Positions 13,379 to 53,913 of a stretch of 64,000 nt of DNA are shown here, one piece after another. The translations under genes were made by a program, and so were the position numbers. Positions within the stretch are counted from its first letter, which is position 1; each line of letters begins with the position of its first letter. Source of the DNA: Caldimonas brevitalea (GTDB lineage: Bacteria; Pseudomonadota; Gammaproteobacteria; Burkholderiales; Burkholderiaceae_C); NCBI RefSeq assembly GCF_001017435.1, contig NZ_CP011371.1, positions 3,534,001-3,598,000 on the forward strand, in the 5' to 3' direction. Under the pieces are notes generated by a model that was not told where the DNA came from, ran no database searches, and saw nothing but the letters and a program-made list of their open reading frames with translations.

Positions 13379-13514
13379 AGGAACTCCGTGCCGCAAGCCA
13401 TGAAACGCTGCGGACCTACGAGACACAAGACGCACGAAAACGTGCCCGGCCGATCAATGGATGGCCGAACAGACGCAGTCAGGAAGGGATTGAAGCGCGG
13501 TACCCCGCGCAGGG

Positions 13515-13778
13515 CTATGAAGCGCCGGCCGTCACCACGCTCGTGCGGTTCCCCGCTGCGTCGTAGGTGTAGGTGATCACCACGCCGTTGCTGTAGGTGA
13601 CCGTCTTGACTCTGCCCAGGGTGTCGTAGGTGTATGTCACCGAACCCGCTAGAGCCGGAGCCGCGACCATCAGTGCGGCGACTCCACCGACAAGGCATTG
13701 CCGCACTTGTCGCAGCAGCACAGCTGCCTTGCTCCCTCTACCCCTTGCGTTGCGCAAGGTGACCCATTTTGTTATCAC
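13515..13778 (-). CDS. Mini-Rhs protein A: signal peptide plus one YD-repeat pair
   Basis: 87 residues from GTG 13778, which has GGGAGAGAACAA just upstream. It has an N-terminal signal peptide (CLVGGVAALMVAAPALAG). The mature part of ~40 residues is just two YD motifs (SVTYTYDTLGRVKTV and ITYTYDAAGNRTSVV) and ends in GAS. It is the same length as, and strongly similar to, the protein at 14702-14965, and it shares promoter, ribosome site and a hairpin with it. A single YD pair cannot form the usual Rhs shell. Function unknown; it may be a secreted decoy, a subunit or a remnant. It lies 136 bp before the large Rhs gene. Confidence 0.72.
   Translation of the reverse strand: MITKWVTLRNARGRGSKAAVLLRQVRQCLVGGVAALMVAAPALAGSVTYTYDTLGRVKTVTYSNGVVITYTYDAAGNRTSVVTAGAS
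13743..13759 (-). repeat. Hairpin CCTTGCG-N3-CGCAAGG inside mini-Rhs gene A
   Basis: A perfect 7-bp inverted repeat with a 3-nt loop, located about 19 nt inside the coding region and translated as part of TLRNAR. The same hairpin with a different loop occurs at the same place in the twin gene (14933-14949). Confidence 0.75.
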
Positions 13779-13871
13779 TTGTTCTCTCCCAGAGGTGGGT
13801 GGACGGTCATTGCAATCCACCCGCTTGATCTCAAGTTCGCTTGGTCTGCTCGCCGCGAACGTTGACGCGCC

Positions 13872-13900
13872 ATTGTTAGAAGTGTTCCATGCGCTGTCAA
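13872..13900 (-). promoter_or_regulatory. Promoter of mini-Rhs gene A
   Basis: On the minus strand, -35 TTGACA (13900-13895) and -10 AACAAT (13877-13872) are separated by 17 bp. The sequence just upstream (AATCTTG) and the -35 are also present before the twin gene. Confidence 0.6.
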
Positions 13901-14003
13901 CAAGATTCCCGTTGCAAACGGTGTAACCGACATCAGACCTCTGCCTCCCGCACGTCGCGGGGAGGTGCCGGCACATCAGCTGTTTGGCGTCCCGCTGTCC
14001 GTC

Positions 14004-14096
14004 TCAGCGAGTACGCGAGCCGGGCATCCTTACGAGCTCGAGAACAACCGCGTCCACTTCCTCCGGCTTGAAGGCGAACACGGTCAGCCGGCCCAT
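14004..14096 (-). CDS. Possible 30-residue small protein
   Basis: A short frame starting ATGGGCCGG, 9 bp after the stop of the 135-aa gene on the same strand (product begins MGRLTVFAFKPEEVD). The amphipathic start and close spacing suggest it could be the end of a small operon. No clear ribosome site and no known family. Listed as tentative. Confidence 0.25.
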   Translation of the reverse strand: MGRLTVFAFKPEEVDAVVLELVRMPGSRTR

Positions 14097-14105
14097 GACG
14101 GCCTC

Positions 14106-14513
14106 TCACGAAAGCCGGGCGGCAGCCATCCGAATCTCTCCTTCTGCCTCGGCCAGGAAGCGCCTCACTGCAGCAACCCAGTCGGCGGCCCAGTGTTCCA
14201 AGGGCGATTCGGCGATCTGCGCAGGGCCCGTAGCGCCGGGCCCCTCCGCAACCACCGCACCGTCGTCGGTGCAAATATCCGACGACGCTGACCACCCGTC
14301 TCCCGTCGCTTGAACATCAACGACGACTGCCAACTCGTCGCCAGTCGGCGACCGCCGTACAGCCAAATATGCACGAACTGGAAACGCGTCGTTTGACGTG
14401 CACGCGACCTCGCATGCCAGGGTGGAATCGAACTTTTCAATCTCGGCCGCGACGGCGGCCAAGATGACGTGCAGATCGCGCCACAGCCTGTCGGCGCCGA
14501 CAGTCAGTTTCAC
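14106..14513 (-). CDS. Unknown soluble protein between the two mini-Rhs genes
   Basis: 135 residues from GTG 14513, preceded by GAGGG at ~6 nt. No signal peptide or membrane segment. It is acidic, with alternating beta-rich and helical stretches and a final amphipathic helix (HWAADWVAAVRRFLAEAE). Family not recognised. Its size, composition and place in a YD/Rhs block fit an immunity or adaptor protein, but that is inference from context. Confidence 0.6.
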   Translation of the reverse strand: MKLTVGADRLWRDLHVILAAVAAEIEKFDSTLACEVACTSNDAFPVRAYLAVRRSPTGDELAVVVDVQATGDGWSASSDICTDDGAVVAEGPGATGPAQIAESPLEHWAADWVAAVRRFLAEAEGEIRMAAARLS

Positions 14514-14701
14514 GTCGCCCTCACTTCATGACCGTACCCGCCAACGCATCGGATAACAATTCCGAGGCCCGTTGTCATGCCTGTTTCCCTTGTTGGCCTG
14601 TTGACCTTGAGCGGTGAGACGCTCTTCACCTACCAAATCTGCGTCACGTGGCGTCAGTGGCGATCTTCTGTAAGGTGAGGCCGCGTTTGCGGCCAGGCGT
14701 A

Positions 14702-14965
14702 CTACGAAGCCCCGGTGGTCACCACGGCCGTGCGGTTGCCCGCTGCGTCGTAGGTGTAGGTGATCAAGGCACCGGTGCTGTACTGAACCGTCTTGACGCG
14801 CCCAAGCGCGTCATAGGTGTAGGTGACCGAGCCCGCGACGGAAGGCGCTGCGCTGAAGACGGCGGCGCATGCCAGGACCCATGCAGGTGCTGCAGCCGTG
14901 AGGAAACGCCGAGGCCGGCGCTCTCCCTCATACCTTGCGTCACGCAAGGTTCGCGTTGTTCTCAT
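14702..14965 (-). CDS. Mini-Rhs protein B: signal peptide plus one YD-repeat pair
   Basis: 87 residues from ATG 14965, preceded by GGGGAGAGAACA. The N-terminus is basic (MRTTRTLRDAR), then a signal peptide ending SAAPSVAG and a ~40-residue mature part with two YD motifs (SVTYTYDALGRVKTV and ITYTYDAAGNRTAVV). It is the paralogue of the protein at 13515-13778: the mature parts differ at only a few positions, while the signal peptides differ widely. Longer frames upstream lack a ribosome site. Transcribed divergently from gspE. Confidence 0.72.
   Translation of the reverse strand: MRTTRTLRDARYEGERRPRRFLTAAAPAWVLACAAVFSAAPSVAGSVTYTYDALGRVKTVQYSTGALITYTYDAAGNRTAVVTTGAS
14933..14949 (-). repeat. 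Hairpin CCTTGCG-N3-CGCAAGG inside mini-Rhs gene B
   Basis: Identical arms to the hairpin in gene A, with loop TCA instead of TTG, again just downstream of the start codon. Conservation in two paralogues whose flanking codons differ suggests a role at RNA or DNA level. Confidence 0.75.
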
Positions 14966-15064
14966 TGTTCTCTCCCCTGTTTGAATGGGCCGCTGTTGCA
15001 GGCCCACATATCGCCGGGAAGTTCGCATAGACTGCTCGGCGCGAACCGTCAGGCAATGTGAGTG

Positions 15065-15094
15065 ATTGTCCTGATCACTCATCTCAGCTGTCAA
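15065..15094 (-). promoter_or_regulatory. Promoter of mini-Rhs gene B
   Basis: Minus strand -35 TTGACA (15094-15089) and -10 GACAAT (15070-15065), 18 bp apart. It is preceded by AATCTTG as in the twin promoter. It lies about 60 bp from the gspE start, so the two transcripts diverge here. Confidence 0.55.
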
Positions 15095-15151
15095 CAAGAT
15101 TTCGGCCGCGCAACACATGCGACTCTTTTGTGACGGCACCCGCCATCGACC

Positions 15152-16918
15152 ATGCGCTTGAGTTCCCTTGCCTCATCAGAACAGCCGCACCGCACCGACC
15201 GGGCATCGGCTGACCTGTCGGCGCTGGTCGACGAGGATCCCCAGGCCGCACTCGCGCAAGCGTTGTTGGAGCAGGGGCTGCTGACGGCCGAAGGCATCGA
15301 GCGCACCTTGCATGCGTCGCGCGCCAGCGGCACACCGTTGTCTTCCGTGGCCACCCGTTTGGGCCTGGTCACCGAGCGGGAGATGGCGCGCGCGTTCTCC
15401 GCACTGCTCGAGATCCCGCTCGTCACGCGTGCGGAGTTCCCAGCCACGTTGCCCCATCTGGGCGGCCTCAACCCGCATTACCTGCGCACCAAACGCATCC
15501 TGCCGGTCAACCTGCGCGAGGGCCGCCTGGACCTCGCGATGGCGAACCCGATGGACACCGCCGCGGTGGCCGGGGTCGCCTATGCCGCCGGGTGCCCGGT
15601 GCGGCCCCTGGCGGCGCTCGAGTCGGACATCGAGGACTACTTCGAGCGCCAAGACGAGCGCCATGCCGTGCGCCACGATGCATCGGAAGCGGGTTCTGCA
15701 ACCGCCCGCACCAGCGACGACATCGACCGGCTGTCCGACCTCGCCTCGGACGCGCCGGTGATCCGGCTGGTGCAGCGTCTGTTGGGCGCCGCCATCGACG
15801 CCGGCGCCTCCGACGTGCACCTGGAACCCGGCCCCGACGCACTCTCGGTGCGATACCGCATCGACGGCCTGCTGCACGAAACCGAGGTGCTGTCCGGTCG
15901 CTTGGCCGAGCCCGTGGTGTCGCGCGTGAAGCTGATGGCGAGGCTCGACATCGCGGACAAGCGCGTGCCCCAGGACGGCCGCATCCGCTTTGCCTCTCGC
16001 GGGCGCAGTCTCGACATGCGGGTGGCCACCTTCCCCACCCTGCACGGCGAAGCGGTCGTGCTGCGGCTGCTGGGCCAGCAGACCGTCGCGTTGCAGCTCG
16101 AAGCCCTGGGACTGTCTCGGAGCGGGCTGCAAACGCTGCGCGAAGCGCTGCGGCGGCCGCACGGCATCGTGCTGATCACCGGCCCCACGGGCAGCGGCAA
16201 GACCACCACCTTGTATGCCGCACTCAACGAGATCCGCCGTCCCGAGTTGAAGATCGTCACGGTCGAAGATCCGATCGAGTACACCTTGCCGGGGGTTTCG
16301 CAGCTCCAGGTCAAGGCGGAGATCGGTCTGACCTATGCCTCGGCGTTGCGCTCGGTGCTGCGCAACGATCCCGACGTCATCATGATCGGCGAGATCCGCG
16401 ATCGCGAAACCGCCGACATCGCGGTGCGCGCAGCGCTGACCGGGCATCTCGTGTTGGCGACCCTGCACACCAACACCGCGGCCGGCGCGGTGACCCGTCT
16501 GCTGGACCTGGGCGTCGAAGACTATCTGCTCGCGTCGACGCTGGTGCTGTCGGCGGCCCAGCGCCTGGTGCGCCGTCTGTGCGCCCACTGCAAACTGTGG
16601 ACCGATGCCGATGACTCGGCGGCGCGGATGCTGGCCTGCGTGGCCCAGGGCGCGGACGCGCCCAGGCTGGCCCAGGCCCGGGGCTGTCCGCACTGCCTCG
16701 GCCGCGGCTACTCAGGCCGGCTGCCCCTGTTCGAGGCCTTGCCGCTGGGCGCAGCAGAACGCGACCTGATCCGCACCAGCCGCTCGGAGGAAGCCCTGCG
16801 GGCCAGCGCGGCGCGCCACGGTTCGGACAGTTTGTGGCGCCACGGCTTGCAACAGGTCCAGGCCGGCGAGACGACCCTCGACGAGGTCCTGTCGGTCGTA
16901 GAGGAGCGCGGGAGATGA
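15152..16918 (+). CDS. gspE: Type II secretion ATPase GspE
   Basis: A 588-residue cytoplasmic hexameric ATPase that powers pseudopilus assembly. N-terminal GspE/PilB domain (~30-165). The ATPase core has Walker A GPTGSGKT (344-351), an aspartate box (VEDPIEY ~371-377), Walker B with VIMIGEIRD (~409-417) and a His box (ATLHTNT). A tetracysteine zinc motif CxxC...CxxC is seen in LCAHCKLW and CPHCLGRG. First gene of the gsp operon; its stop overlaps the gspF start (ATGA). The ribosome site before ATG 15152 is poor. PilB is the alternative, but the neighbouring pseudopilin genes settle it as T2SS. Confidence 0.95.
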   Translation: MRLSSLASSEQPHRTDRASADLSALVDEDPQAALAQALLEQGLLTAEGIERTLHASRASGTPLSSVATRLGLVTEREMARAFSALLEIPLVTRAEFPATLPHLGGLNPHYLRTKRILPVNLREGRLDLAMANPMDTAAVAGVAYAAGCPVRPLAALESDIEDYFERQDERHAVRHDASEAGSATARTSDDIDRLSDLASDAPVIRLVQRLLGAAIDAGASDVHLEPGPDALSVRYRIDGLLHETEVLSGRLAEPVVSRVKLMARLDIADKRVPQDGRIRFASRGRSLDMRVATFPTLHGEAVVLRLLGQQTVALQLEALGLSRSGLQTLREALRRPHGIVLITGPTGSGKTTTLYAALNEIRRPELKIVTVEDPIEYTLPGVSQLQVKAEIGLTYASALRSVLRNDPDVIMIGEIRDRETADIAVRAALTGHLVLATLHTNTAAGAVTRLLDLGVEDYLLASTLVLSAAQRLVRRLCAHCKLWTDADDSAARMLACVAQGADAPRLAQARGCPHCLGRGYSGRLPLFEALPLGAAERDLIRTSRSEEALRASAARHGSDSLWRHGLQQVQAGETTLDEVLSVVEERGR

Positions 16919-40512: not shown

Positions 40513-41064
40513 ATGGAACTGAGTGAAACCGGCCGGCGCTTCGTGACCCACTGGGGGGAGATGGGCTCCGCCTGGGGTGTCAACCGTACCGTCGCGCAAA
40601 TCCACGCGCTGCTGTTTTTCCACGGCAAACCGCTGAACGCGGAGCAGTTGTCGGAAACGCTGGGCGTGGCCCGCTCCAATGTCAGCACCAGCCTGAAAGA
40701 GCTGCTGAACTGGAACCTGGTGCGGGTGGCCCATGTGCTGGGCGATCGGCGCGACTACTTCGAAACCTCGCACGACGTCTGGGAGCTGTTCCGCACCATC
40801 GTGCGTGAGCGCAAGGAACGCGAGTTCGATCCCACCACCCGGGTCTTGCGTGGGTTGGTCGACGCCAGCGAGTTCAACGCCGAGCCCCCCGACGTGCAAG
40901 ACCGGCTGCGCGAGACGCTGCACTTCATGGAAGCGCTCGGCGCCTGGTCGGACGAGATGTTGCGGCTGACGCCGGCGACGCTCGAGAAGGTGCTGCGCCT
41001 GGGCGCGGCGGTGCAAAAGTTCGTGCGCCCAGGTGACGCCGCCGCGCGCAAAGGGTCGGCGTGA
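40513..41064 (+). CDS. GbsR/MarR-type transcriptional regulator
   Basis: 183 residues. Winged helix-turn-helix at ~25-95 (LLFFHGKPLNAEQLSETLGVARSNVSTSLKELLNWNLV), then a helical C-terminal dimerisation part. GbsR relatives are repressors; in Bacillus GbsR senses choline, but many proteobacterial members are uncharacterised. The inverted repeat overlapping its promoter suggests autoregulation, and the matching site before the gene at 41222 suggests control of the three following genes. Confidence 0.88.
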   Translation: MELSETGRRFVTHWGEMGSAWGVNRTVAQIHALLFFHGKPLNAEQLSETLGVARSNVSTSLKELLNWNLVRVAHVLGDRRDYFETSHDVWELFRTIVRERKEREFDPTTRVLRGLVDASEFNAEPPDVQDRLRETLHFMEALGAWSDEMLRLTPATLEKVLRLGAAVQKFVRPGDAAARKGSA

Positions 41065-42121: not shown

Positions 42122-42601
42122 GTGAACACTTATCTCGTCGTCAAATGGGTCCACGTCGTCTCGAGCGTGTTGATGGTCGGCACCGGGTTCGGCTCGGCCT
42201 TCTTCATGTTCGTCGTCAACCGCAGCGGGAGCCTCGCCGCGCAGGCGGTGGTCAGCCGCTGGGTGGTACGCGCCGACTGGTGGTTCACCACGCCGACGGC
42301 GCTGATCCAGCCGCTCACCGGCTTCTGGCTGGCACACATGGCCGGCTGGCCTCTCGACACGCCATGGCTCGCCCTGTCGATCACGCTGTTCGTGCTGTCT
42401 GGCGCCTGCTGGCTCCCAGTGGTGTGGTTGCAGTTGCGCATGGCCGCCTTGGCACAGACGGCAGGCACCCGGTCGGCGCCGCTGCCCTCGCTGTACTGGC
42501 GCTATGCACGCGCCTGGGAGTGGCTCGGCTACCCGGCCTTTATCGCGATGCTCGGGGTGTATTTCCTGATGGTGACCAAGCCGGCCTTGTGGGGCGGCTG
42601 A
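42122..42601 (+). CDS. DUF2269 membrane protein
   Basis: 159 residues, four transmembrane segments. The pattern YLVVKWVHVVSSVLMVGTGFGSAFFM with conserved His, and RWVVRADWWFTTPTALIQPLTG, are DUF2269 hallmarks (CopD-like topology). GTG 42122 follows AAGGAG. Function unknown; the conserved His suggests a haem or metal role, which is inference. Last gene of the GbsR-linked group; its 3' end faces the UbiA gene. Confidence 0.85.
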   Translation: MNTYLVVKWVHVVSSVLMVGTGFGSAFFMFVVNRSGSLAAQAVVSRWVVRADWWFTTPTALIQPLTGFWLAHMAGWPLDTPWLALSITLFVLSGACWLPVVWLQLRMAALAQTAGTRSAPLPSLYWRYARAWEWLGYPAFIAMLGVYFLMVTKPALWGG

Positions 42602-42622
42602 GGTGCGGCCGGAGGGCCCGGC

Positions 42623-43576
42623 TCACACGAGCCGGGCCACGGCGATGTTGATCAGGAAGAACAGCACCATAGCCCCTCCGAAGTAGGGCTTCAGCGACAC
42701 CGCTTCCTGGCGCGACACGATGAAACCTTGCAGTCCGACGGCCGCCGGCAACAAGGCGAACCACGGCAGTGGCGACGCGGCGCCCGCACCCGCACTCAAA
42801 TGGGCCCAGGTGGCCAGTGCGCAAGCCGCTCCGCCGAACAGCATGCAGGCGGCGCTGGCCCCCGGCACACCGAGCGCGAGCGCATAGCCGTTCTCGCCGG
42901 CCGCCGCCAGGTGTGGCCACTTCAACTTGCGCCCGAACTCGAGATGCAGAAACACCGCGACGTGGGCCAACAGCACCGGCACTGCCTGCTGCAGAGGGGG
43001 CGCCAGGCCGCGCGAGGCCAGAAACAGATAGGCGTAGACGTTGAGCGCCGCGCTCACCGGCAAGGTCACGCACAGGTTGAGCAGGATCCGGCGGCGAAAA
43101 GTGGCCGAATGCCGTTCGAGCAGCAGCAGCCCGATGCCATAGGCCATCTGCAGCGCGGCGAACACCGCGAGCCGCGGCGACAGCCAGGCACTGAGCGCCA
43201 GCACCACCACCGCGACCGCCGCCGCCAGCCCCCACACCTCCCCCAGGCTGACGGCGCCCCTCACCAGGGGCCGCATCGGGTTGTGCCGCCGGTCGTAATC
43301 GAGGTCCTTCACCTCGTCCACCGCGCGCAGGAACAGCAGGATCAGGAAAAAAGCCAACGCGACCGCCGCGCCCTCGATGCCGAGGGCCGCACCGGCCCGC
43401 GGCGGCAACAGCATCGACAGCAGCGAGTACGCCCAGCCAGCGCACACGACGGCATAGATCGGCGGCGGATGGGCTTCGCAGACGAAGCCGAACAAGCGGC
43501 GCAGGCGCGAGCCCGGGACCCTGGCGACACGACCAGCGGCGGCCTCGCCGAACGGCGGCACGGGCGGCCCCTTCAT
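42623..43576 (-). CDS. UbiA-family prenyltransferase
   Basis: 317 residues, about eight to nine transmembrane helices. The first Asp-rich motif is clear: AVDEVKDLDYDRRHNPMRPL (Asp87, Asp91, Asp95 region), which binds the prenyl diphosphate through Mg2+. The second Asp-rich loop expected after helix six is replaced by EFGRKLKWPHLAAAGENGY, so the catalytic set may be altered. UbiA enzymes transfer prenyl groups to aromatic or polar-head acceptors. Last gene of the AfsA-type operon; ATG 43576 overlaps the stop of the phosphotransferase gene. The acceptor is unknown. Confidence 0.88.
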   Translation of the reverse strand: MKGPPVPPFGEAAAGRVARVPGSRLRRLFGFVCEAHPPPIYAVVCAGWAYSLLSMLLPPRAGAALGIEGAAVALAFFLILLFLRAVDEVKDLDYDRRHNPMRPLVRGAVSLGEVWGLAAAVAVVVLALSAWLSPRLAVFAALQMAYGIGLLLLERHSATFRRRILLNLCVTLPVSAALNVYAYLFLASRGLAPPLQQAVPVLLAHVAVFLHLEFGRKLKWPHLAAAGENGYALALGVPGASAACMLFGGAACALATWAHLSAGAGAASPLPWFALLPAAVGLQGFIVSRQEAVSLKPYFGGAMVLFFLINIAVARLV

Positions 43577-46257
43577 GCGGCGTCGAGGAACCGAACCACA
43601 CCCCGCCCCCCATCGATCTCGATCGGGGCGCCGTCGGCGATCCGTCGGCAGGCGTCGTCGACGCCCACCACCGTCGGGATGCCGAACTTGCGGCCGGTGA
43701 TCGCGGTGTGCGAGAGCATGCTGCCGCGCTCGACCACGATGCCGGTCGACGCGAGCATCAGGAACAGCCAGCCGGGGTCGGTCTCGCGGGTCACGAGGAT
43801 GGTGTCGGGCGGCAGGTCTTCGACCTGGTGCGGGTCGAGCACCACACGGGCACGGCCTTGCGCCACGCCCATGCTGGAACCCAACCCCTGCAACGCTTGC
43901 CCGGCCACGCCCGGTGCGGCCTCTGCCCGCGCCAACGGATTGCTGCGCAAGGCGCCCTGGGTCGCCAGCGTCTCCGGCACCTCTTGCTGCGCATAGGCCT
44001 GCAGCTGCCGGCGGCGCCGCTCGACCGTCTCGCGGAATGCCTCGTCGACCCCGGTGCCGTCGGTGTAGCCGGTGATCTCGTCGACGGTGAGGTAGTAGAT
44101 GTCGTCGGCCCGTTCGATCGCCCCCTGCGCCACCAGATGGGCGGCTTGCGCACGGAAGAGGTCGCGGCAGATGCCGAACAGCTCGCTGCGGCAGTAGCGC
44201 GAGTTCTCGCGATGCGCGATCACCTCGCGCAGCAGCTTCAACATCCACCGCAGCAGGCCTTTGCGCAACGACCGGCGGCCGAAGCGCTGGTCGAGTGCCG
44301 CCTCGGCCTCGGCGCGCTGCTTCAGTTCGGCCGCGCGCGAGGCATCGGGGTCGAGCCCGGCCTTGACGAAGCGGCGCACGCCGCGTAGCAGCACCGTCGG
44401 GTCGTCACGCAAGCTCGGGTTTTCCATTTTCAGCTCCTGCATCGAGCGGTCGCCGTAGGCGGCGATGTGGTCGTCGAGCAGGGTCAGCAGCGTCGCGTGG
44501 AGGCGGCGAGCCCGAAAGCGTTGCACCAGCGTGGCGTCGTCGCTGGCAAGGAAGTCGGCACACAGCGTCGGCTGGCTGCGCACCCAGGCCGCGATGCGCA
44601 GCACCGACAGAAACACCTCGACGCTCTCGATCTGGTCGTCGCCGCACAGCAGATTGCTCAGCAGCGCCGGGTCTTCATCGAGCCGCCAGCGTTTGAACAG
44701 TGCCTGGACGATGGCGTGCAGCGTGAAGATGTAGGCGTCGTTGATCAGCGTCACGCCCCAGTGCCGGCCGACGTCGCGCCACAAGCGGTGGAACTCCTCG
44801 GTCAGCGCCAAGGCATCGCGCTCGTCCTGCAGCACCCGGCGTGACTGCAGCGCACGCTCGCGCCACCATTGCTTGTAGGCCCGCATGCGGCGCGGCAGCA
44901 TCAGGAACTCGCGCGCGAAAATGCTCCAGCCCCGCAGCTGCTGCCACCCGCGGCGCCAGGCCGGCAGCACCGGTGCTGCCTCGCCGGCATCGATGAAATA
45001 GGAGGTCTTGAGGCCCACCATGTTCTCCCAGGCCTTGCACAGCCACGGGAAGATCGGCACCAGGCCGTGCAGCAGGTAGAAGGCGTTGAGCGAGTAGTAG
45101 ATGCGGCCATTGACGTAGCCGATCATCCGGTCGAGACGGTGGTGGTGCTCGGTGAGCTGCCGGTCGGGTGCGCCGGCGCGACGGTAGATGTCGCGAAAGA
45201 TCACGCGGTAGAACAGCCGTGCCAGGCTGTAGGTCAGCGGGCTCGAAACGCCCGGGTAACTCTCGGCGATGTTGAGCCCGGTCCACAGGCGCTTGCGCAC
45301 GAAGTCGATCGACACCGGCCGCGCCTGCAGGATGTGCACCCGACCTTGCGCATCCAGCGTGCCTTCGATGTCTTGCGGCCAGCCGAACACCTGTTCGATC
45401 TTGCGACCCAAGGCTTGCAGCGTCCGGATCTCGTCGTCGTCGAGGCAGGCCGCCTCGCGCCGCTCGGGCGCGACTTCGAATTCGCGCAGGCCCTGGCCAC
45501 GCTCCGCGTCGAAGCCGAGCCCGACATGCTTGACCGCGAGCCGGCGCTCGATCGCGCCGCTTTTCGCGTTGACGAAATAGTGGTCGACCGGCACCGCTTC
45601 CTGCACCACACCTTCGCCGATACCGTGCCCGGCGATCAGCAAGGTGTCGCGTGCGGTCGTGTTCGGGTCGCAGGTGAACATCACGAACGAACGTTCGCCG
45701 AACACCATGCGCTGCACGCCGATGGCGACGCTGACGCCCAGTGCATCCTGCCCCTGCGTCAGGCGGTAGAGCAGCGCCTGTTCGCTGTAGGCGCTGGCCC
45801 AACCGTCACGCACCCTCGCGATCACATCTTCGCGCCGCACATAGAGCGCCGTCGCGCTGATCCCGGCATGCGGGTCGTGCACCGAGTCCTCGCTCCACTC
45901 GGGCCGGGCGCCGAGCATGCAGGCACGCACCGAGACGTATTCGGCATTGCCGAGGTGACGGTCGAGGGCGTCGTGCACCGCGCGGCAGGTGGCCGCGTCG
46001 ATGTCCAGCGTGTGCACCAGCGCCTGCAGCCGTCGAGCGGCGTCCGTCACGCTGGCCCGGTCTCGCGGGTCGACGGTCGCCAGCAACGCGGCCGCCTCTG
46101 CACGCGCCGGTTGCCACCAACGGTCGTGCAGCCGCCTCGAGAGACAGAAGAAGTCGGGTACCGGGATGCCACGGCCTCGCAGCAGCGCCTGCACGTGGAA
46201 CTTGCCGCCGACCTCGGCACGCGCCATACGTCGGTAGTCCGAAATGATCTCGTTCAT
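43573..46257 (-). CDS. PEP-synthase-like phosphotransferase (PEP/pyruvate-binding and mobile domains)
   Basis: 894 residues. An N-terminal PPDK/PEP-synthase ATP-grasp domain (~1-320) contains VGGKFHVQALLRGRGIPVPDFF and ends with EGTLDAQGRVHILQARPV. A long central helical region follows, and the C-terminal swivelling phosphohistidine domain has catalytic His850 in GSMLSHTAITG. This three-part order is that of rifampin phosphotransferase and other dikinase-type enzymes, which move a phosphate from ATP through His to a small molecule. The classical C-terminal PEP-binding barrel of PEP synthase is absent, so the acceptor is probably not pyruvate. Start and stop overlap neighbours in the operon. 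Confidence 0.87.
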   Translation of the reverse strand: MNEIISDYRRMARAEVGGKFHVQALLRGRGIPVPDFFCLSRRLHDRWWQPARAEAAALLATVDPRDRASVTDAARRLQALVHTLDIDAATCRAVHDALDRHLGNAEYVSVRACMLGARPEWSEDSVHDPHAGISATALYVRREDVIARVRDGWASAYSEQALLYRLTQGQDALGVSVAIGVQRMVFGERSFVMFTCDPNTTARDTLLIAGHGIGEGVVQEAVPVDHYFVNAKSGAIERRLAVKHVGLGFDAERGQGLREFEVAPERREAACLDDDEIRTLQALGRKIEQVFGWPQDIEGTLDAQGRVHILQARPVSIDFVRKRLWTGLNIAESYPGVSSPLTYSLARLFYRVIFRDIYRRAGAPDRQLTEHHHRLDRMIGYVNGRIYYSLNAFYLLHGLVPIFPWLCKAWENMVGLKTSYFIDAGEAAPVLPAWRRGWQQLRGWSIFAREFLMLPRRMRAYKQWWRERALQSRRVLQDERDALALTEEFHRLWRDVGRHWGVTLINDAYIFTLHAIVQALFKRWRLDEDPALLSNLLCGDDQIESVEVFLSVLRIAAWVRSQPTLCADFLASDDATLVQRFRARRLHATLLTLLDDHIAAYGDRSMQELKMENPSLRDDPTVLLRGVRRFVKAGLDPDASRAAELKQRAEAEAALDQRFGRRSLRKGLLRWMLKLLREVIAHRENSRYCRSELFGICRDLFRAQAAHLVAQGAIERADDIYYLTVDEITGYTDGTGVDEAFRETVERRRRQLQAYAQQEVPETLATQGALRSNPLARAEAAPGVAGQALQGLGSSMGVAQGRARVVLDPHQVEDLPPDTILVTRETDPGWLFLMLASTGIVVERGSMLSHTAITGRKFGIPTVVGVDDACRRIADGAPIEIDGGRGVVRFLDAA

Positions 46258-47270
46258 GCTCTCGCCCTCCCCTCGACGTGCAGCCCTTGCAAGGCACGGC
46301 GCACCGCCTCGCGCGGGTCGGTCTGCAGCCAGTCGTTGCCGAGTGCCGCACGCAGCTTGGCGACGTCCCCATAGTGGTCGTGGCCGACCAAACGCAATCG
46401 CTGCACCATCTGGCGCAATCGTGCCGCCGGCAGTCGGCCGATCAGGCGCAGCAACGGCTCGTACACCGGCAGTCGCCAGCGCGGTGGTGGCAGCGGCTGC
46501 CGCTCGTCCAACAGCGCGCGGATCTCGCCGAGCGAGATGGGCCGTTCGTAGCCCACGTTGTAGGCCTCGAAGCGTGCCCGCGGCGCCGTCCCGTTCAAGT
46601 GCCGCTCGGCAAACGCGAGCAGGATGCGCGCGAAGTCGTCGACGTCGATCACCGAGTAGCGCTGATCGCCATTGCCGACCGACAGTCCCGCGGCCAGCAA
46701 GCGGGCAAGCCCCGGCAGCACATGGCGGTCACCAGGCCCCAGCACGAAACGCGTGCGGAACACCGACACCGCGCAGGCCCCTCGCGCCGCCAACGCGGCG
46801 AGCGCCGTCTCACACTGGGCGCGCGACAAGGCCAGCGGCGAGGCCGGCTGCAACGGCGCGTCTTCGCGCACACCGCGCTGCGGCCCCTCGCCGTACACCG
46901 AGTGAGAACTGACGAACAAGATGGCCCGCGTCTCGCGGTTGACCGCCCGCGCAAGGTGCTCGACACCCGTCACATTGACGCCAAAGCCGCTGCCGTCGTG
47001 GTCGATCTGTTTGCTGGCGCAATGGATCACGACGTGCGGGAAGGCCGGCAACAGGCCGTCGGGCAAGGCGGCGACGGAGCCGGCATGCACGCTGGCACCG
47101 TCGGGTAGCAAGGGCAAGCGGCGCCGGTGAACCAGCAATCGGACGTCGCCGAAGCGGCGCCCGCACGACACTTGCGTCGCCAGCTGGCGCACCACCGCCG
47201 AGCCGACGAACCCGGTGGCACCGAGCAGCACCACACCCCGGTCGCTGGCCGGCACTGCGGCCCGGCTCAC
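46254..47270 (-). CDS. NAD(P)-dependent epimerase/reductase-like protein (extended SDR)
   Basis: 338 residues. Nucleotide-binding motif VVLLGATGFVGSAVVRQL and a conserved SSHSVYGE segment. In the place of the catalytic YxxxK I read SPLALSRAQCE, so Tyr and Lys are replaced by Leu and Arg. It could be a reductase with changed chemistry or a scaffold protein. GTG 47270 overlaps the preceding stop (GTGA) and the 3' end overlaps the phosphotransferase start. In butyrolactone pathways a reductase acts after the AfsA step; whether this one does so is inference. Confidence 0.85.
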   Translation of the reverse strand: MSRAAVPASDRGVVLLGATGFVGSAVVRQLATQVSCGRRFGDVRLLVHRRRLPLLPDGASVHAGSVAALPDGLLPAFPHVVIHCASKQIDHDGSGFGVNVTGVEHLARAVNRETRAILFVSSHSVYGEGPQRGVREDAPLQPASPLALSRAQCETALAALAARGACAVSVFRTRFVLGPGDRHVLPGLARLLAAGLSVGNGDQRYSVIDVDDFARILLAFAERHLNGTAPRARFEAYNVGYERPISLGEIRALLDERQPLPPPRWRLPVYEPLLRLIGRLPAARLRQMVQRLRLVGHDHYGDVAKLRAALGNDWLQTDPREAVRRALQGLHVEGRARA

Positions 47271-47950
47271 CACACCCCCGGTGCCAGACGCGCCCGCCCG
47301 GCGGCGAAGGCCCGATAGGCGGGCATTTGCAGCAGATGCGCTTCCTCGACCCGGATGCGGCACACCAGCGCCGGCACGAACACACCGCACAGCGCGGCCA
47401 GCAACCACCCGTTGAAGCACAGCACCAGAACCCCCACGTGGGCCAGCAACATGCCCGCATACGCCGGATGACGCAGCACCCGATACGGTCCGGTGTCGAC
47501 GATGGCCTCGCCGTCGGGGGTGCGCACCCGATGCGAGTACGCCTGACCCAGCGTTCGGATCGCCCAGGCCCGCAGCCCGATGCCCGCGGCAAAGAGCGAC
47601 AGCCCGATGGGCAGCCAGGCGCCCGTCGACGACCAGATCGACTCGAAGCCGAAGGCGCAGGCCATCGTGATGAAGCGCGCGGTCGCATAGGCCTCGCAGG
47701 TGGCGCCGTCGGTGCGGGTGTCCTGGCTCTTTGCGGAGGCGGTGATGCGGAACTCGGACAGGATCCACACCACATAGACGAAGGCCAGGCCCGCCAGCAG
47801 CGCGCGTGTGGGGCCGGTCGCGGTGAGGGCCCGCCAGCCTCCGAGCAGCAGCATCAGCAGGATGCCGATCACCGCGATCAGCAAGGCGGCATGGGACCGA
47901 TGGGGCCGCGCAGACCCGTCAGGCCCGGGCGATGAGGATGTGGAAGGCAT
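47267..47950 (-). CDS. Isoprenylcysteine carboxyl methyltransferase-like membrane protein
   Basis: 227 residues, about five to six transmembrane segments. The C-terminal ICMT/PEMT signature GPYRVLRHPAYAGMLLAHVG is followed by EEAHLLQMPAYRAF, the SAM-binding region of membrane methyltransferases. Such enzymes methylate carboxyl or lipid head groups; some relatives are reductases. Second gene of the operon, 26 bp after the AfsA-type gene. ATG 47950 has a weak ribosome site, so it may depend on upstream translation. Confidence 0.85.
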   Translation of the reverse strand: MPSTSSSPGPDGSARPHRSHAALLIAVIGILLMLLLGGWRALTATGPTRALLAGLAFVYVVWILSEFRITASAKSQDTRTDGATCEAYATARFITMACAFGFESIWSSTGAWLPIGLSLFAAGIGLRAWAIRTLGQAYSHRVRTPDGEAIVDTGPYRVLRHPAYAGMLLAHVGVLVLCFNGWLLAALCGVFVPALVCRIRVEEAHLLQMPAYRAFAAGRARLAPGVW

Positions 47951-47975
47951 GGGGGGTATGTCTTTCGCGGTGCTG

Positions 47976-48986
47976 TCAGGCCATCAGGAACCGGCTGCTG
48001 GCGACCAGGCGCTCACCCTGGCGGGCTTCGACGTGGAGACGCTCGGGCGGGCCCATCACGTCGGGCTGCCCGGCAGGACGCGCGGTGAGGTAAACGGGGC
48101 AGTCCAGTTCCGCGAAGCTCGTGAAATCGACCTCCATCTCGCGCAGCAAGGCCTCGCCGTCGTATCGCCGATAGCGGCTGGCAACGTCGAGGGCCAGCCG
48201 TCGCATGCCTTCGAGCACCAACAGACCGGGTACATGGTCGTTCTGGTGGTCGAAGAAAAACCGGTTGTCTCGCTCGACCCGCAGCGTGCCAACGAAGCTG
48301 TGGTCGGTGCGGCTCACCCACAGGGTGTCCTCGATCACCGCCCGCGCGGCGCTCGCGTGCGCACGCACCCGGAAGCCACCGGCCAACGGCGGCTCGTCGC
48401 CTTGCGGCACGGGCGGCCGACGCACGTGCCGCAGCCGCGCCAGCTCGCGCAGCCGAAGGTAGCGATGCTGGGGCTGCACGGTCCACCCGCTGCTCTGCCG
48501 ACACACACACTGCTCGCCGACGTAGAACGTGCCCTCGGCCCTGACCGAGACCAGCTCGTGCTCGGCGCCCAGCTTGCAGTCGCGCACGGTCATGTGCACC
48601 CACAGCCGCTCGGCGGTGCGCCAGTCGATGCTGTGCCAGGCGGGCATCGGCTCGAAGCGCATGTCGTCGAGGATGAAGGCATGCCCGTGGGGGACGCCGA
48701 GAAACTCGTGCGAGACGGCAATGCCGATCTGCCGACCGATCTCGACCAGCGAGAGCGTCACGTCCTGCGGGCCCAGTCGCATGTCGTTGATGTACTGGTT
48801 CGACTGCGGCACGAAAGCGCCGATCAGGAACTCGCTGTCCGACAGCTGGTGGAGCGACGTCACGTAGACGCTCTCCAGTTGCCGCTTGTGCGCCAGCTCA
48901 CGCGCGATGGTGCGTTGGTGGGCCGAGTTCTGGATCCGGCCCCACTCATGATCGAAACTTCGCTCTGCCTGTGTGATGGCATTCAT
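47976..48986 (-). CDS. AfsA-type double-hotdog protein (gamma-butyrolactone synthase family)
   Basis: 336 residues from ATG 48986; ATG 48992 is an alternative, but its ribosome site (AGAGAGG) would be too close. Two A-factor-type hotdog repeats: one around ~55-115, with degenerate motif and ending HAFILDDMRFE, and a second with the family signature DHQNDHVPGLLVLEGMRR (246-263). AfsA condenses a beta-ketoacyl-ACP with dihydroxyacetone phosphate to give a butenolide phosphate, the first step to A-factor-like signals in actinomycetes. First gene of the operon that continues to the UbiA gene. No signal peptide or membrane segment. A homologue in this host group is unusual to my knowledge. Confidence 0.88.
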   Translation of the reverse strand: MNAITQAERSFDHEWGRIQNSAHQRTIARELAHKRQLESVYVTSLHQLSDSEFLIGAFVPQSNQYINDMRLGPQDVTLSLVEIGRQIGIAVSHEFLGVPHGHAFILDDMRFEPMPAWHSIDWRTAERLWVHMTVRDCKLGAEHELVSVRAEGTFYVGEQCVCRQSSGWTVQPQHRYLRLRELARLRHVRRPPVPQGDEPPLAGGFRVRAHASAARAVIEDTLWVSRTDHSFVGTLRVERDNRFFFDHQNDHVPGLLVLEGMRRLALDVASRYRRYDGEALLREMEVDFTSFAELDCPVYLTARPAGQPDVMGPPERLHVEARQGERLVASSRFLMA

Positions 48987-49013
48987 CGACATTTCCCTCT
49001 CTGAGTTATGCAA

Positions 49014-49967
49014 AGGCGCTCGCAGGAGCTAGCGTCCCTCGCCGACCGCGTCGCGTCGCGCCGCCCGGCGACGCCGCCAACGTCCGCGATGCCGGCCTCC
49101 ACGGCCTCGGCCGTCCAGCGCTCGAAGGTGCGAATCAGCCAGAACGAGAGCGTTCTCGACAGCACCGCCGTGCCCGCGCCGAATGGCATATACCGCAGCG
49201 TTTGCTGCCTTTACTCGATAACACGCGGGGCGCCGAATCAAATCCGACACCGCATTTCAGCAGCACGCTCCTGTGGCTGCTCCTGAATAACAACCCCGGG
49301 ATTTACCCGGGTCGTCACGATGTTAGGAATTCACTGACATTCCACTACCCTCGATCTCCGGGGTAGGCAAGTGATAGAAATTATGCTGAACCATTGTGCG
49401 TCGCAGCAAATGGAATGACAAGGGCTCATCTCGCAAAATTGGAGCGGCTCCGGTGCTGCATTGCAGGCCCTCGAACTGCACAGCAGTTAACCCTGCCCGC
49501 GGGCGACCTGTCGAATCTGTCCGGTGCAGAAACCCCTTACGAAGTTCGAAACTGCAATCCCACATGAAATATCGGGCCAAACCGCAAATTCCCGGACGCT
49601 GTTATTTGATCCGTGGGCCGAAATTAGCCATCTCGGTGCAGACCCAGAACATTTCCTTGCGCCCCAGCAGATACTCCACCGCTCGCCGCACTGAACGGGG
49701 TTGATTCACCCTTTCACATTTCTTGTTTCAGCGCCACCGCCTTTTCGGTGCGGCACGCCCGAGGGCGGTGCATATTGAGCTCGGCACGGCACCATTACCT
49801 TCACCGCGCCCGCGGCCTCACCCGGGATACGTTCCCGTCCTACATCCCATTGCCGCCGTCACTGACGCCGAAGAGCCATCCCCCCGCTACGATGGCCCCG
49901 TCTTCCTAATGGCATCGCGGCCGGTGATGGAGTTGTGCCGGGGCGTGCCGACCACCGAAAGGACACG
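49014..49967. other. Long intergenic region upstream of the AfsA-type operon
   Basis: About 950 bp without a convincing gene, between two divergent transcripts. Its middle (~49200-49720) is clearly more AT-rich than its surroundings. Short inverted repeats: AGAAC-N6-GTTCT (49141-49156), GGAAT-N8-ATTCC (49326-49343) and CTACCC-N10-GGGTAG (49345-49366). These may be regulator sites for the operon or chance. Short open frames here start at TTG without ribosome sites and are not called. Confidence 0.6.
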
Positions 49968-51599
49968 ATGGCCGAGCACTGGTACAAGAACGCGATCATC
50001 TACTGCCTGGATGTCAAGACGTTTGCAGACGGCAACGGCGACGGCATCGGCGACTTCGTCGGGCTGCGCGACAAGCTCGACTACCTGGCCGGGCTGAACG
50101 TCGATTGCGTCTGGCTGCAGCCCTTCTATCCCTCGCCGATGCGGGACAACGGCTACGACATCGTCGACTACTACAACGTCGACCCGCGCCTCGGCACGCT
50201 GGGGGACTTCGTCGAGTTCTCGCGCCGCGCCCGCGACCGCGGCATGCGCGTGATGATCGACCTGGTGGTCAACCACACGTCGATCGACCACCCGTGGTTC
50301 CAGTCGGCCCGGCGTGACGCCTCATCGCCGTACCGCGACTACTACGTCTGGTCCGAAGACAAGCCCGCCGACGCCGGCGAAGGTATGGTCTTCGCCGGCG
50401 AGCAGACCACCACCTGGACCTGGGACCGCGAGGCCAAGGCCTATTACTTCCACCGCTTCTACGACCACCAGGCCGAGCTCAACATCTCGAGCCCGCTGGT
50501 GCGCCGCGAGATCGAGAAGATCACCGGCTTCTGGCTGCAGCTCGGCGTGACCGGCTTTCGCATCGACGCCCTGCCGTTTCTGATCGAACTCAAGGGCCTG
50601 CCGTCCGAAGGTCAGCAAGACCCGCATGACTATTTGCGCGAGCTGCGCCAGCATGTGCAGACCTTGTGCGGCGACGCCTGCCTGATGGCCGAGGCCAACC
50701 TGCCGCCGGAGGAGGTGCCGAACTACTTCGGCGACGGCGACAAGATCCACATGTCGTTCAACTTCTGGCTCAACCAGCACCTGTTCCTCGCGCTGGCCCG
50801 CAAAGACGGCCGGCCCGTGCGGCAGGCCTGGGAGCAGTTGCCACCGTTGCCGCGCAACTGCCAGTGGAACAACTTCTTGCGCAGCCACGACGAGCTGGAC
50901 CTGGGCCGGCTCACCGACGCCGAACGTCAGGAAGTGTTCGCCGCCTTCGGCCCGGAGCCCGACATGCAGCTCTACGGCCGTGGCATACGCCGTCGCCTGG
51001 CCCCCATGCTCGGCAACGACCGCCGTCGGCTCGAGCTGTGCCATAGCCTGATGCTGACCTTGCCCGGCACACCGGTGCTGCGCTACGGCGACGAGATCGG
51101 CATGGGCGACGACCTCGGCCTGCCCGACCGCGAATCGGTGCGCACGCCGATGCAATGGAGCGCCGACGACAACGGCGGCTTCTCGCAGGCTCCGCCCGAA
51201 CGGCTGGCCTTGCCGCCGGTCGGCGAAGGCGAGTTCGGCTATGCCAGCGTGAATGTCGAAGCCCAGCGCCGCGACCCGCAATCGCTGCTGAACTGGCTCG
51301 AGCGCATGACACGGCGGCGCAAGGAGACGTCCGAGTTCGGGCTGGGCGAGTTCAGCTGGATCGAGACCGACAAGCCCGAGCTACTGGCCCACCGCTGCGA
51401 TCTCGACACATCGACCGTGTTCGCGGTGCACAACTTCTCGCCGCGGCGGCAGAAGTTCTCGCTGCCCATCGGCCCCGGCGTGAACTGCGTCCACGACGTG
51501 CTGGCCGACCACCGCCACGAGGTGACCGAAGACGGCCACTACCGGTGCGAACTGGAACCCTACGGCTACCGCTGGCTGCGCGCGCGCCGCGCGGGTTGA
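49968..51599 (+). CDS. Trehalose-synthase-like alpha-amylase (GH13)
   Basis: 543 residues of GH13 with TreS-like features: YKNAIIYCLDVKTFADGNGDGIGDF at the start, nucleophile Asp200 in GFRIDALPF, acid/base Glu242 in LMAEANLPPEE and Asp308 in RSHDEL. TreS interconverts maltose and trehalose; many relatives annotated as TreS act on other alpha-glucosides. The C-terminal maltokinase domain of some homologues is absent. ATG 49968 follows GAAAGGA. A phospholipase-D-type gene follows after 13 bp. Confidence 0.88.
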   Translation: MAEHWYKNAIIYCLDVKTFADGNGDGIGDFVGLRDKLDYLAGLNVDCVWLQPFYPSPMRDNGYDIVDYYNVDPRLGTLGDFVEFSRRARDRGMRVMIDLVVNHTSIDHPWFQSARRDASSPYRDYYVWSEDKPADAGEGMVFAGEQTTTWTWDREAKAYYFHRFYDHQAELNISSPLVRREIEKITGFWLQLGVTGFRIDALPFLIELKGLPSEGQQDPHDYLRELRQHVQTLCGDACLMAEANLPPEEVPNYFGDGDKIHMSFNFWLNQHLFLALARKDGRPVRQAWEQLPPLPRNCQWNNFLRSHDELDLGRLTDAERQEVFAAFGPEPDMQLYGRGIRRRLAPMLGNDRRRLELCHSLMLTLPGTPVLRYGDEIGMGDDLGLPDRESVRTPMQWSADDNGGFSQAPPERLALPPVGEGEFGYASVNVEAQRRDPQSLLNWLERMTRRRKETSEFGLGEFSWIETDKPELLAHRCDLDTSTVFAVHNFSPRRQKFSLPIGPGVNCVHDVLADHRHEVTEDGHYRCELEPYGYRWLRARRAG

Positions 51600-52905: not shown

Positions 52906-53262
52906 GCTGAAGCATCGGCCACCGATGGGCACGCTCTACACCGGCCGCATGGCAAGCCTGCAACAGACTGTTCGCACGCCACACCACGGTTGAGCTGCAC
53001 CTCTCGCCAGCCGCATTGCGCCCGACCGGCGCAACCTCCGCAGCGGTTCAAGCGCTTCACAAGTGCAAGGACGCACTCACATCTTCAGGTCCACTTGCCG
53101 GCCCGTCGGCCGGCGCTGGAACAGCTTCCACCGGCCCCCCTCACCTCGGGGGAACACCGCGCCAAGCCGCTCCACGCCTGGGTTTCGCCGCCTACACTGC
53201 CCCCGCTCCAACGCAAGATTGCGTGGGGCGCTCAACAACATAGATGTTTCGGGGAAGTCAAC
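52906..53262. other. Intergenic region before the PEP-CTERM gene
   Basis: No gene recognised. It holds a strong hairpin GCCGGCC-CGTC-GGCCGGC (53097-53114) without a T tract and probably the promoter of the next gene; no clear -35/-10 or -24/-12 pair was found. Confidence 0.5.
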
Positions 53263-53913
53263 ATGAAGATGTCGCGTCTGGGTTCATGGGCTGCTTCTGC
53301 ATCGGCCTGTGCCGTTGCACTGCTGGCTCCGATCGGCGCTGCGCATGCAGGGATCTACACCTCCACCGGCGAGACGTTCGAGGCGTCGGCGCAGTATCAG
53401 GCTGGCCAGCGTCTCGACTGGGTCACCGTGGCCCACCAATCCGAGCTGACCAACCAGGGCGGCGGCTTCGGCTATGCGGGCGCCTACAACGAGTCGCGCT
53501 TCGTGCAACACGCCGGTGACATCGACACCTTCGGCGGATACCAACAGAGCGTGTTCGACATGCTCGGCGGCAACGTCGACTCCCTGCAACTGAACGGCAA
53601 CGCGCAGGCACAACTGCGCGGCGGCTCGATCTCCTCGCTGCTCCGCACCGACGAGGCCCGCATCACGATCTACGGCAGCAGCTTCCAGTTCGAGAACAAC
53701 CTGTTGTCCGGCACCTGGGCCGACGGCACGGCGTTCAGCTTCTGGCTGTTCGACGGCACGCAAGGCAACACCTTCGCCGCCAACCTCGACTACGTGTCGT
53801 TCGTGCAACTGGCACCCGTGCCCGAGCCCACCACCTACGCCCTCACCGGCTTGGGCCTGGCCGCCCTCGGCGTGGCAGCGCGCCGCCGCCGTCGCAACGG
53901 CGACGCCGGCTGA
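53263..53913 (+). CDS. PEP-CTERM sorted secreted protein
   Basis: 216 residues. Signal peptide (SACAVALLAPIGAAHAG), a beta-rich Gln/Gly-rich middle and a C-terminal sorting signal VPEPTTYALTGLGLAALGV followed by RRRRR. PEP-CTERM proteins are processed by an exosortase and tied to exopolysaccharide export; no exosortase gene is in the window. The middle (GNVDSLQLNGNAQAQLRGG) resembles short beta-helix turns. ATG 53263 follows GGGGAAG. Confidence 0.92.
   Translation: MKMSRLGSWAASASACAVALLAPIGAAHAGIYTSTGETFEASAQYQAGQRLDWVTVAHQSELTNQGGGFGYAGAYNESRFVQHAGDIDTFGGYQQSVFDMLGGNVDSLQLNGNAQAQLRGGSISSLLRTDEARITIYGSSFQFENNLLSGTWADGTAFSFWLFDGTQGNTFAANLDYVSFVQLAPVPEPTTYALTGLGLAALGVAARRRRRNGDAG

Follow-up and report, generated by a model that had tools for sequence, protein, structure and literature searches.

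The window analyzed here, a 64,000-nucleotide stretch of the Caldimonas brevitalea genome, carries on its minus strand a five-gene operon that begins with a gene of the AfsA family. Butenolides made by AfsA enzymes serve bacteria as hormones and as building blocks. As read from the open reading frames (ORFs) of the window, the operon encodes, in this order, an AfsA-type double-hotdog protein (47976 to 48992; 338 amino acids, or 336 counted from the ATG at 48986), an ICMT-like membrane methyltransferase (47267 to 47950; 227 amino acids; PF04140), an extended short-chain dehydrogenase/reductase (SDR) with an altered active site (46254 to 47270; 338 amino acids; GTG start; PF01370), an enzyme resembling phosphoenolpyruvate (PEP) synthase and rifampin phosphotransferase (here PPS; 43573 to 46257; 894 amino acids; PPDK_N and PEP-utilizers domains), and a UbiA-fold membrane protein (42623 to 43576; 317 amino acids). 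An AfsA, ICMT, extended SDR, PEP-synthase-like, and UbiA set on a single strand had been predicted from the DNA alone, and the ORFs, the Pfam matches, and the predicted structure of the UbiA protein bear it out. The predicted spacing held in part: the last four genes do overlap, by 4 bases at each of the ICMT/SDR, SDR/PPS, and PPS/UbiA junctions (GTGA, ATGA, and ATGA), but the gap from the AfsA stop codon to the ICMT start codon is 25 bases, not 26. What makes the operon notable is that it surrounds AfsA with a fixed set of enzymes, which is found again in Pseudomonadota, in Bacteroidota, and partly in Actinomycetota and which includes unusual PEP-synthase-like and UbiA-like enzymes.

Properties of the five proteins

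Families were assigned at Pfam gathering cutoffs, which four of the five operon proteins pass and the UbiA protein does not. The NCBIfam comparison covered ScbA/BarX, isoprenylcysteine methyltransferase, rifampin phosphotransferase, and other families, and among the matches listed (25 of 26 families for PPS) none reaches its curated cutoff. The AfsA protein matches PF03756 over two stretches with 103.5 bits (cutoff, 24), a profile score that upholds its predicted family assignment. Its AlphaFold model (pLDDT, 82) matches tandem hotdogs, and residues E84, R87, Q88, H95, D252, and H253 are invariant in 26 of 26 rows of alignment A6. Like AfsA/ScbA proteins of Streptomyces, it belongs to the AfsA family, has a double hotdog, and shares 18 invariant columns with a Streptomyces ScbA/BarX protein (alignment A4); unlike them, it scores below the ScbA_BarX equivalog NF041195 (148.2 bits; cutoff, 200), and its identity to the Streptomyces protein is 26%. 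A protein search returned 24 AfsA proteins at 40 to 57% identity to that of the window and a later one two additional proteins, while a sequence search of the Protein Data Bank (PDB) with the AfsA query gave no matches.

PPS combines a PPDK_N domain (165.9 bits; cutoff, 27) with a PEP-utilizers domain (77.8 bits; cutoff, 23.1), and Pfam gave no match to a PEP-binding barrel. Its best three PDB chains by sequence are 5hv2, 5fbs, and 5hv1, a group that we take to be rifampin phosphotransferase (RPH); 5hv2 is labeled phosphoenolpyruvate synthase and is presumably the Listeria RPH. Residues K19, R111, E298, Q311, R313, and H850, which correspond to the ATP site and the histidine of RPH, are retained in every compared copy that covers them. 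PPS accordingly shows the domain pair, the histidine, and the ATP-site residues of an RPH-type enzyme, and the retention of these residues is consistent with its predicted identity as a PEP-synthase-like phosphotransferase. Unlike RPH, it lies in a biosynthetic operon and scores 300.1 bits against an RPH cutoff of 999; its scores for RedH (279.5 bits) and PigC (247.4 bits) are likewise far under their cutoffs. The possibility that PPS is simply the ordinary PEP synthase of the genome was rejected in view of a second, separate PPDK_N gene at C1:2614054, which scores 410 bits compared to 169 for the operon protein. A phage search with PPS yielded nine records, the five listed being at 28 to 30% identity.

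The ICMT protein matches PF04140 with 69.6 bits (cutoff, 24) and scores 41 bits against the isoprenylcysteine methyltransferase equivalog NF040696, under the cutoff of 160. The motifs RHPAYxGM, which contains RHPxYxG, and YSH(R/H)V are each present in six of six compared copies, including both of the Streptomyces copies described below. The SDR matches the Epimerase family PF01370 with 81 bits (cutoff, 20.9).

The UbiA protein reaches 26.4 bits against PF01040, below the cutoff of 34.2, although its protein database entry (P0027) still carries a precomputed PF01040 label. We rejected the idea that this assignment is spurious because the predicted structure displays the UbiA fold. The first Asp-rich motif is present (D90, D94, and D98 in 39/39 rows), as are E216 and K220 (39/39 rows). 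The second Asp-rich motif, DxxxD, is missing from the window protein, which has no Asp beyond residue 98; beyond residue 130, DxxxD is absent from 18 of 18 rows in alignment A2 and from 37 of 39 in alignment A5, with P0045 and P0062 having one somewhere in that region. With this motif missing, a prenyl donor is uncertain, and the prenylated product that was among those originally envisaged was not substantiated.

Conservation and distribution of the gene set

A tblastn search with the five protein queries located all five genes, in the same order, at three further loci: in a genome of the same family (G243), in the gammaproteobacterium Alkalilimnicola ehrlichii AK92, and in a Cyclobacteriaceae metagenome-assembled genome (MAG) from the Bacteroidota. 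The conserved linkage expected in relatives is therefore found, and this shared order led us to reject a chance neighborhood of five genes. Identities to the window for AfsA, ICMT, SDR, PPS, and UbiA are 50, 61, 57, 70, and 60% in G243; 41, 55, 50, 53 and 58 (PPS, in two pieces), and 49% in Alkalilimnicola; and 26, 42, 37, 45, and 38% in the Cyclobacteriaceae MAG, declining in step for all five genes. At the Alkalilimnicola locus (L018), PPS is out of frame (12582 to 15256) and the AfsA match ends early (10729 to 10885), so that two genes are apparently frame-broken, through sequencing error or decay of the operon. In a gammaproteobacterial MAG (L017), AfsA sits at the contig end and the partner region falls beyond the contig. 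Twelve of the AfsA genes are on contigs of at least 6 kb, and the matches suggest that five of these have a UbiA match on the same contig; two more have UbiA by tblastn (G243 and Cyclobacteriaceae), one is from Streptomyces, leaving four unassigned. In genome G749, AfsA and PPS-like genes lie about 8 kb apart, with PPS pieces 35% alike. Scanning contigs with a single AfsA query found nothing, and an alignment query found three loci from 107 stretches in what was a nonexhaustive scan.

The operon is rare and scattered. In genome samples drawn so as to include the C. brevitalea genome itself, and with the top candidates scored per genome (2 for PPS, up to 5 for UbiA, 7 for ICMT, and 10 for PF03756), nine of the 399 family genomes had PF03756 matches, with six exceeding the cutoff, and the operon was seen in two of these six (C. 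brevitalea and G243). The same two genomes, both with the operon, were the only ones among 379 of the family with a close ICMT (E ≤ 1e−25). Only C. brevitalea had a close PPS (E ≤ 1e−60; 378 phylum genomes, no more than two candidates being scored per genome) or a strong UbiA match (398 phylum genomes); nine others had weak UbiA matches, and the 3-kb stretches around these held no partner matches. No full-length AfsA relative other than its own was found among 60 relatives, which included C. brevitalea and eight genomes of the genus, the search giving three short partial matches; one of the eight same-genus genomes has only a 64-residue AfsA match, inside a long reading frame. Four other AfsA loci in the family (G344, G301, G396, and G023; 17 to 20 kb each) contained no ICMT, SDR, PPS, or UbiA partner, with one side visible at G396 (L026), where AfsA is near a contig end; a second G396 AfsA fragment was taken without its flanks. 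The G344 gene (L024, 9892 to 10755) encodes a different, shorter AfsA type within this bacterial family (287 amino acids). Across four hosts, the G+C contents of operon and flank are 69.0 and 67.5%, 68.6 and 66.0%, 58.9 and 57.9%, and 44.8 and 45.0%. Since the operon tracks its host, it looks neither newly arrived nor like contamination from another contig. On the same grounds very recent acquisition was rejected for the window itself, where 69.0% compares with 67.5% in the rest of the sequence, although the eight same-genus genomes yielded no full-length AfsA relative.

Related clusters emerged from plasmids. Of 72,556 plasmid records searched with PPS, 222 matched, and among the best 40 (the ranking being the product of identity and letters covered) the top 16 were all from Streptomyces clavuligerus (42% identity), followed by Streptomyces durmitorensis p1 (37%) and 23 others at no more than 32%. 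UbiA matches came from 16 plasmid records, all S. clavuligerus and all adjoining PPS, and ICMT, which also matched in 16 S. clavuligerus records, again placed S. clavuligerus and S. durmitorensis first. We read one record of each kind. S. clavuligerus pF1D25A (CP065237.1; L029, 12387 to 17722) has AfsA-ICMT-PPS-UbiA followed by a zinc-dehydrogenase family gene; S. durmitorensis p1 (L030, 4669 to 13909) has AfsA-ICMT-nitroreductase-PPS-P450 followed by SnoaL-like, nucleotidyltransferase, thymidylate kinase, and KAS III genes. Both share the tight gene coupling of the operon, but neither has an SDR match, and S. durmitorensis also lacks a UbiA match. ICMT is 48% identical to that of the window in S. 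clavuligerus and 37% in S. durmitorensis, and UbiA is 40% identical over 225 residues in S. clavuligerus. The AfsA proteins of these plasmids are of other types, that of S. clavuligerus having a single PF03756 stretch and that of S. durmitorensis seemingly having its two domains in reverse order; the partner enzymes are thus kept more firmly than the type of AfsA. The CP065237.1 UbiA gene is annotated only as a hypothetical protein, and the listings searched named no product for either cluster.

A plasmid of Roseinatronobacter sp. S2 (L031, 523 to 8507) carries UbiA-PPS-DUF3419, two unknown genes, and an AMP-binding gene, without an annotated AfsA; its PPS is 30% identical to that of the window and its UbiA 28% over 204 residues. 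Plasmids of Streptantibioticus and of Streptomyces sp. BHT-5-2 also matched ICMT, but no PPS, SDR, or UbiA match lay within 9 kb; one of these loci (L032) had weak AfsA matches 6 to 7 kb away.

A candidate pathway and its alternatives

We regard as evenly balanced the proposal that the operon encodes a complete pathway of its own, which turns an AfsA butenolide into a phosphorylated derivative finished at the membrane; the product is probably a phosphate-bearing relative of the Streptomyces butyrolactone hormones. As is typical of its family, AfsA would join a beta-ketoacyl thioester to dihydroxyacetone phosphate (DHAP), giving a 2-acyl-3-(phosphooxymethyl)butenolide whose ring the atypical SDR might then reduce or isomerize. 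Both Streptomyces clusters have an oxidoreductase of a different type within or adjoining them, suggesting that the reductase slot is variable. PPS could phosphorylate an oxygen of the scaffold, with the enol of the 2-acyl-lactone as the most plausible site, much as PEP synthase converts pyruvate to an enol phosphate. At the membrane, ICMT would add a methyl group and the UbiA-fold protein a longer alkyl chain, a prenyl group, or some other substituent, and the resulting phosphate-bearing amphiphile might act as either a signal or a hydrolase inhibitor. Known or putative phosphatases accompany AfsA elsewhere, namely, SabP and GdsA/GdsG (PMC7756379) and a HAD protein in Chromobacterium (PMC12114271). 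Unlike the Chromobacterium AfsA-HAD pair and the gladiostatin pathway, the operon gave no match to a phosphatase family in a Pfam search confined to its five proteins and has in its place an enzyme of a phosphate-transferring type, which fits a retained phosphate. Retention of a phosphate would make the product a novel lipid signal or hydrolase inhibitor, and the gene set would then reveal the enzymes that assemble a phosphotriester.

Several observations weigh against such a pathway. The SDR retains GxxGxxG and has LAx(S/T)R in place of YxxxK in four of four operon copies, so that it is not a classical extended SDR; it is present as a candidate for the slot of a BprA-like butenolide phosphate reductase, without YxxxK and with BprA itself outside the comparison. 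A standard two-metal prenyl-diphosphate site in the UbiA protein is doubtful, there being no Asp after residue 98. PigC and RedH, which resemble PPS, drive condensations and leave no phosphate. In S. clavuligerus, as noted, the AfsA protein belongs to a different type. Finally, the Roseinatronobacter PPS-UbiA pair, with no annotated AfsA beside it, need not act on a butenolide.

A plain A-factor-like gamma-butyrolactone or butenolide hormone, merely decorated by PPS, ICMT, and UbiA for recognition or export, would agree with the membership of AfsA in its family and with the homologues of gamma-butyrolactone clusters reported from 12 phyla (PMC12114271, citing Creamer et al. 2021). We consider this rather unlikely, because none of the 28 TetR matches in the genome passes the NCBIfam cutoff for an ScbR/ArpA-type receptor (best, 80.8 bits; cutoff, 150). 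Comparably weak TetR matches also occur in 13 of 14 control genomes, and no regulator family recurs in a partial sample of flanking ORFs (5 from the window, one being MarR-like, and 10 from L017 to L019 and L023). Moreover, the operon adds to the content of A-factor clusters three enzymes, PPS, ICMT, and UbiA, that are retained across phyla and that a plain hormone would not seem to need. A signaling role for the product is thus possible but unsupported, and the original prediction of a signal was not confirmed, given that no receptor passed its cutoff.

The similar RPH, RedH, and PigC scores of PPS leave room for a different function, namely, that of an ATP-driven ligase that couples a second building block to the AfsA product, with UbiA and ICMT modifying the lipid and no phosphate left. 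This seems distinctly unlikely, in that we see nothing in the five-gene block that would supply such a building block and the best PDB chains, three in number, all belong to the presumed RPH group. Quite improbable, too, is that PPS and UbiA constitute an older module of their own for lipid phosphates, to which AfsA and ICMT supply a lipid head group or cofactor and not a signal. The Roseinatronobacter UbiA-PPS(-DUF3419) arrangement argues for such a module, as do E216 and K220 in a UbiA protein without a second Asp motif: in the UbiA-fold phosphoribosyltransferase Rv3806c, Lys143 and Lys208 take the place of the second Mg that UbiA enzymes require (PMC10994848), the equivalence of K220 being putative. 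Yet the Roseinatronobacter PPS is 29 to 33% identical to AfsA-linked PPS proteins, which are 35 to 70% identical among themselves (excluding a 34-column overlap of the Alkalilimnicola pieces), and a distribution so rare and scattered is not what one would expect of a core lipid.

Returning to a pathway that retains phosphate, its product may resemble cyclophostin, the cyclipostins, and the salinipostins, all of them A-factor-related bicyclic enol phosphates (PMC6681047). In the laboratory, the enol of 2-acetyl-butyrolactone is phosphorylated and the ring is then closed; as to biosynthesis, this 2019 review suggests a common origin with A-factor and no more (PMC6681047). Products of this kind would need a phosphotransferase and O-alkylating enzymes, and a cyclic enol phosphate like theirs would, by analogy, fit the chemistry encoded here. 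That cyclic enol-phosphate butyrolactones are made by a machinery shared between phyla, of which the operon represents the Gram-negative branch, with PPS forming the enol phosphate and ICMT and a one-metal UbiA-fold protein forming the phosphate esters, is an unlikely extension in our estimation. If true, it would provide an enzymatic answer to how natural phosphotriesters arise. We know of no route to cyclic enol-phosphate butyrolactones outside actinomycetes, and this operon would then be the first.

Known systems and surroundings of the operon

AfsA enzymes in betaproteobacteria are already known as such. A 2021 study by Creamer et al. reportedly describes spt-like clusters outside Salinispora, and the present operon may be among them. 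The salinipostin (spt) locus of Salinispora itself, to which the operon was tentatively likened at first, is an 11.1-kb butyrolactone cluster (RS20900 to RS20940; PMC7888443). In vitro, an AfsA domain from Burkholderia joins 3-ketothioesters and DHAP into phosphorylated butenolides (PMC7756379), and AfsA is fused to a polyketide synthase (PKS) in the gladiostatin/gladiofungin pathway of Burkholderia gladioli (PMC7756379, PMC7756420). That pathway shares with our operon AfsA chemistry in a betaproteobacterium but uses a chain-release domain of a trans-AT PKS, whereas here AfsA is free-standing and accompanied by tailoring enzymes. Free-standing AfsA proteins of Pseudomonadota are also found in Chromobacterium, but with a HAD hydrolase and a DUF2165 gene as partners (PMC12114271), and in Pseudomonas, but with a hydrolase, a P450, and an MFS gene (PMC8719888). 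The literature titles and abstracts searched contained nothing on the AfsA-ICMT-PPS-UbiA set; the two key salinipostin papers were outside their scope, so absence from print is not established.

Upstream of the operon, the stretch from 49014 to 49934, to which no strand was assigned, may be a regulatory region; G+C content is lower here, at 60% in 49000 to 49999. A weak promoter-like match lies at 49421 to 49393 on the minus strand, the one site in 42400 to 50000, where 0.4 is expected. The operon is flanked by a convergent DUF2269 gene and, 0.9 kb away, by a divergent alpha-amylase family gene. The window also contains a MarR-like gene at 40513 to 41064 and, downstream of the amylase gene, a gene for a protein with a PEP-CTERM sorting motif (PF07589) at 53200 to 53913.

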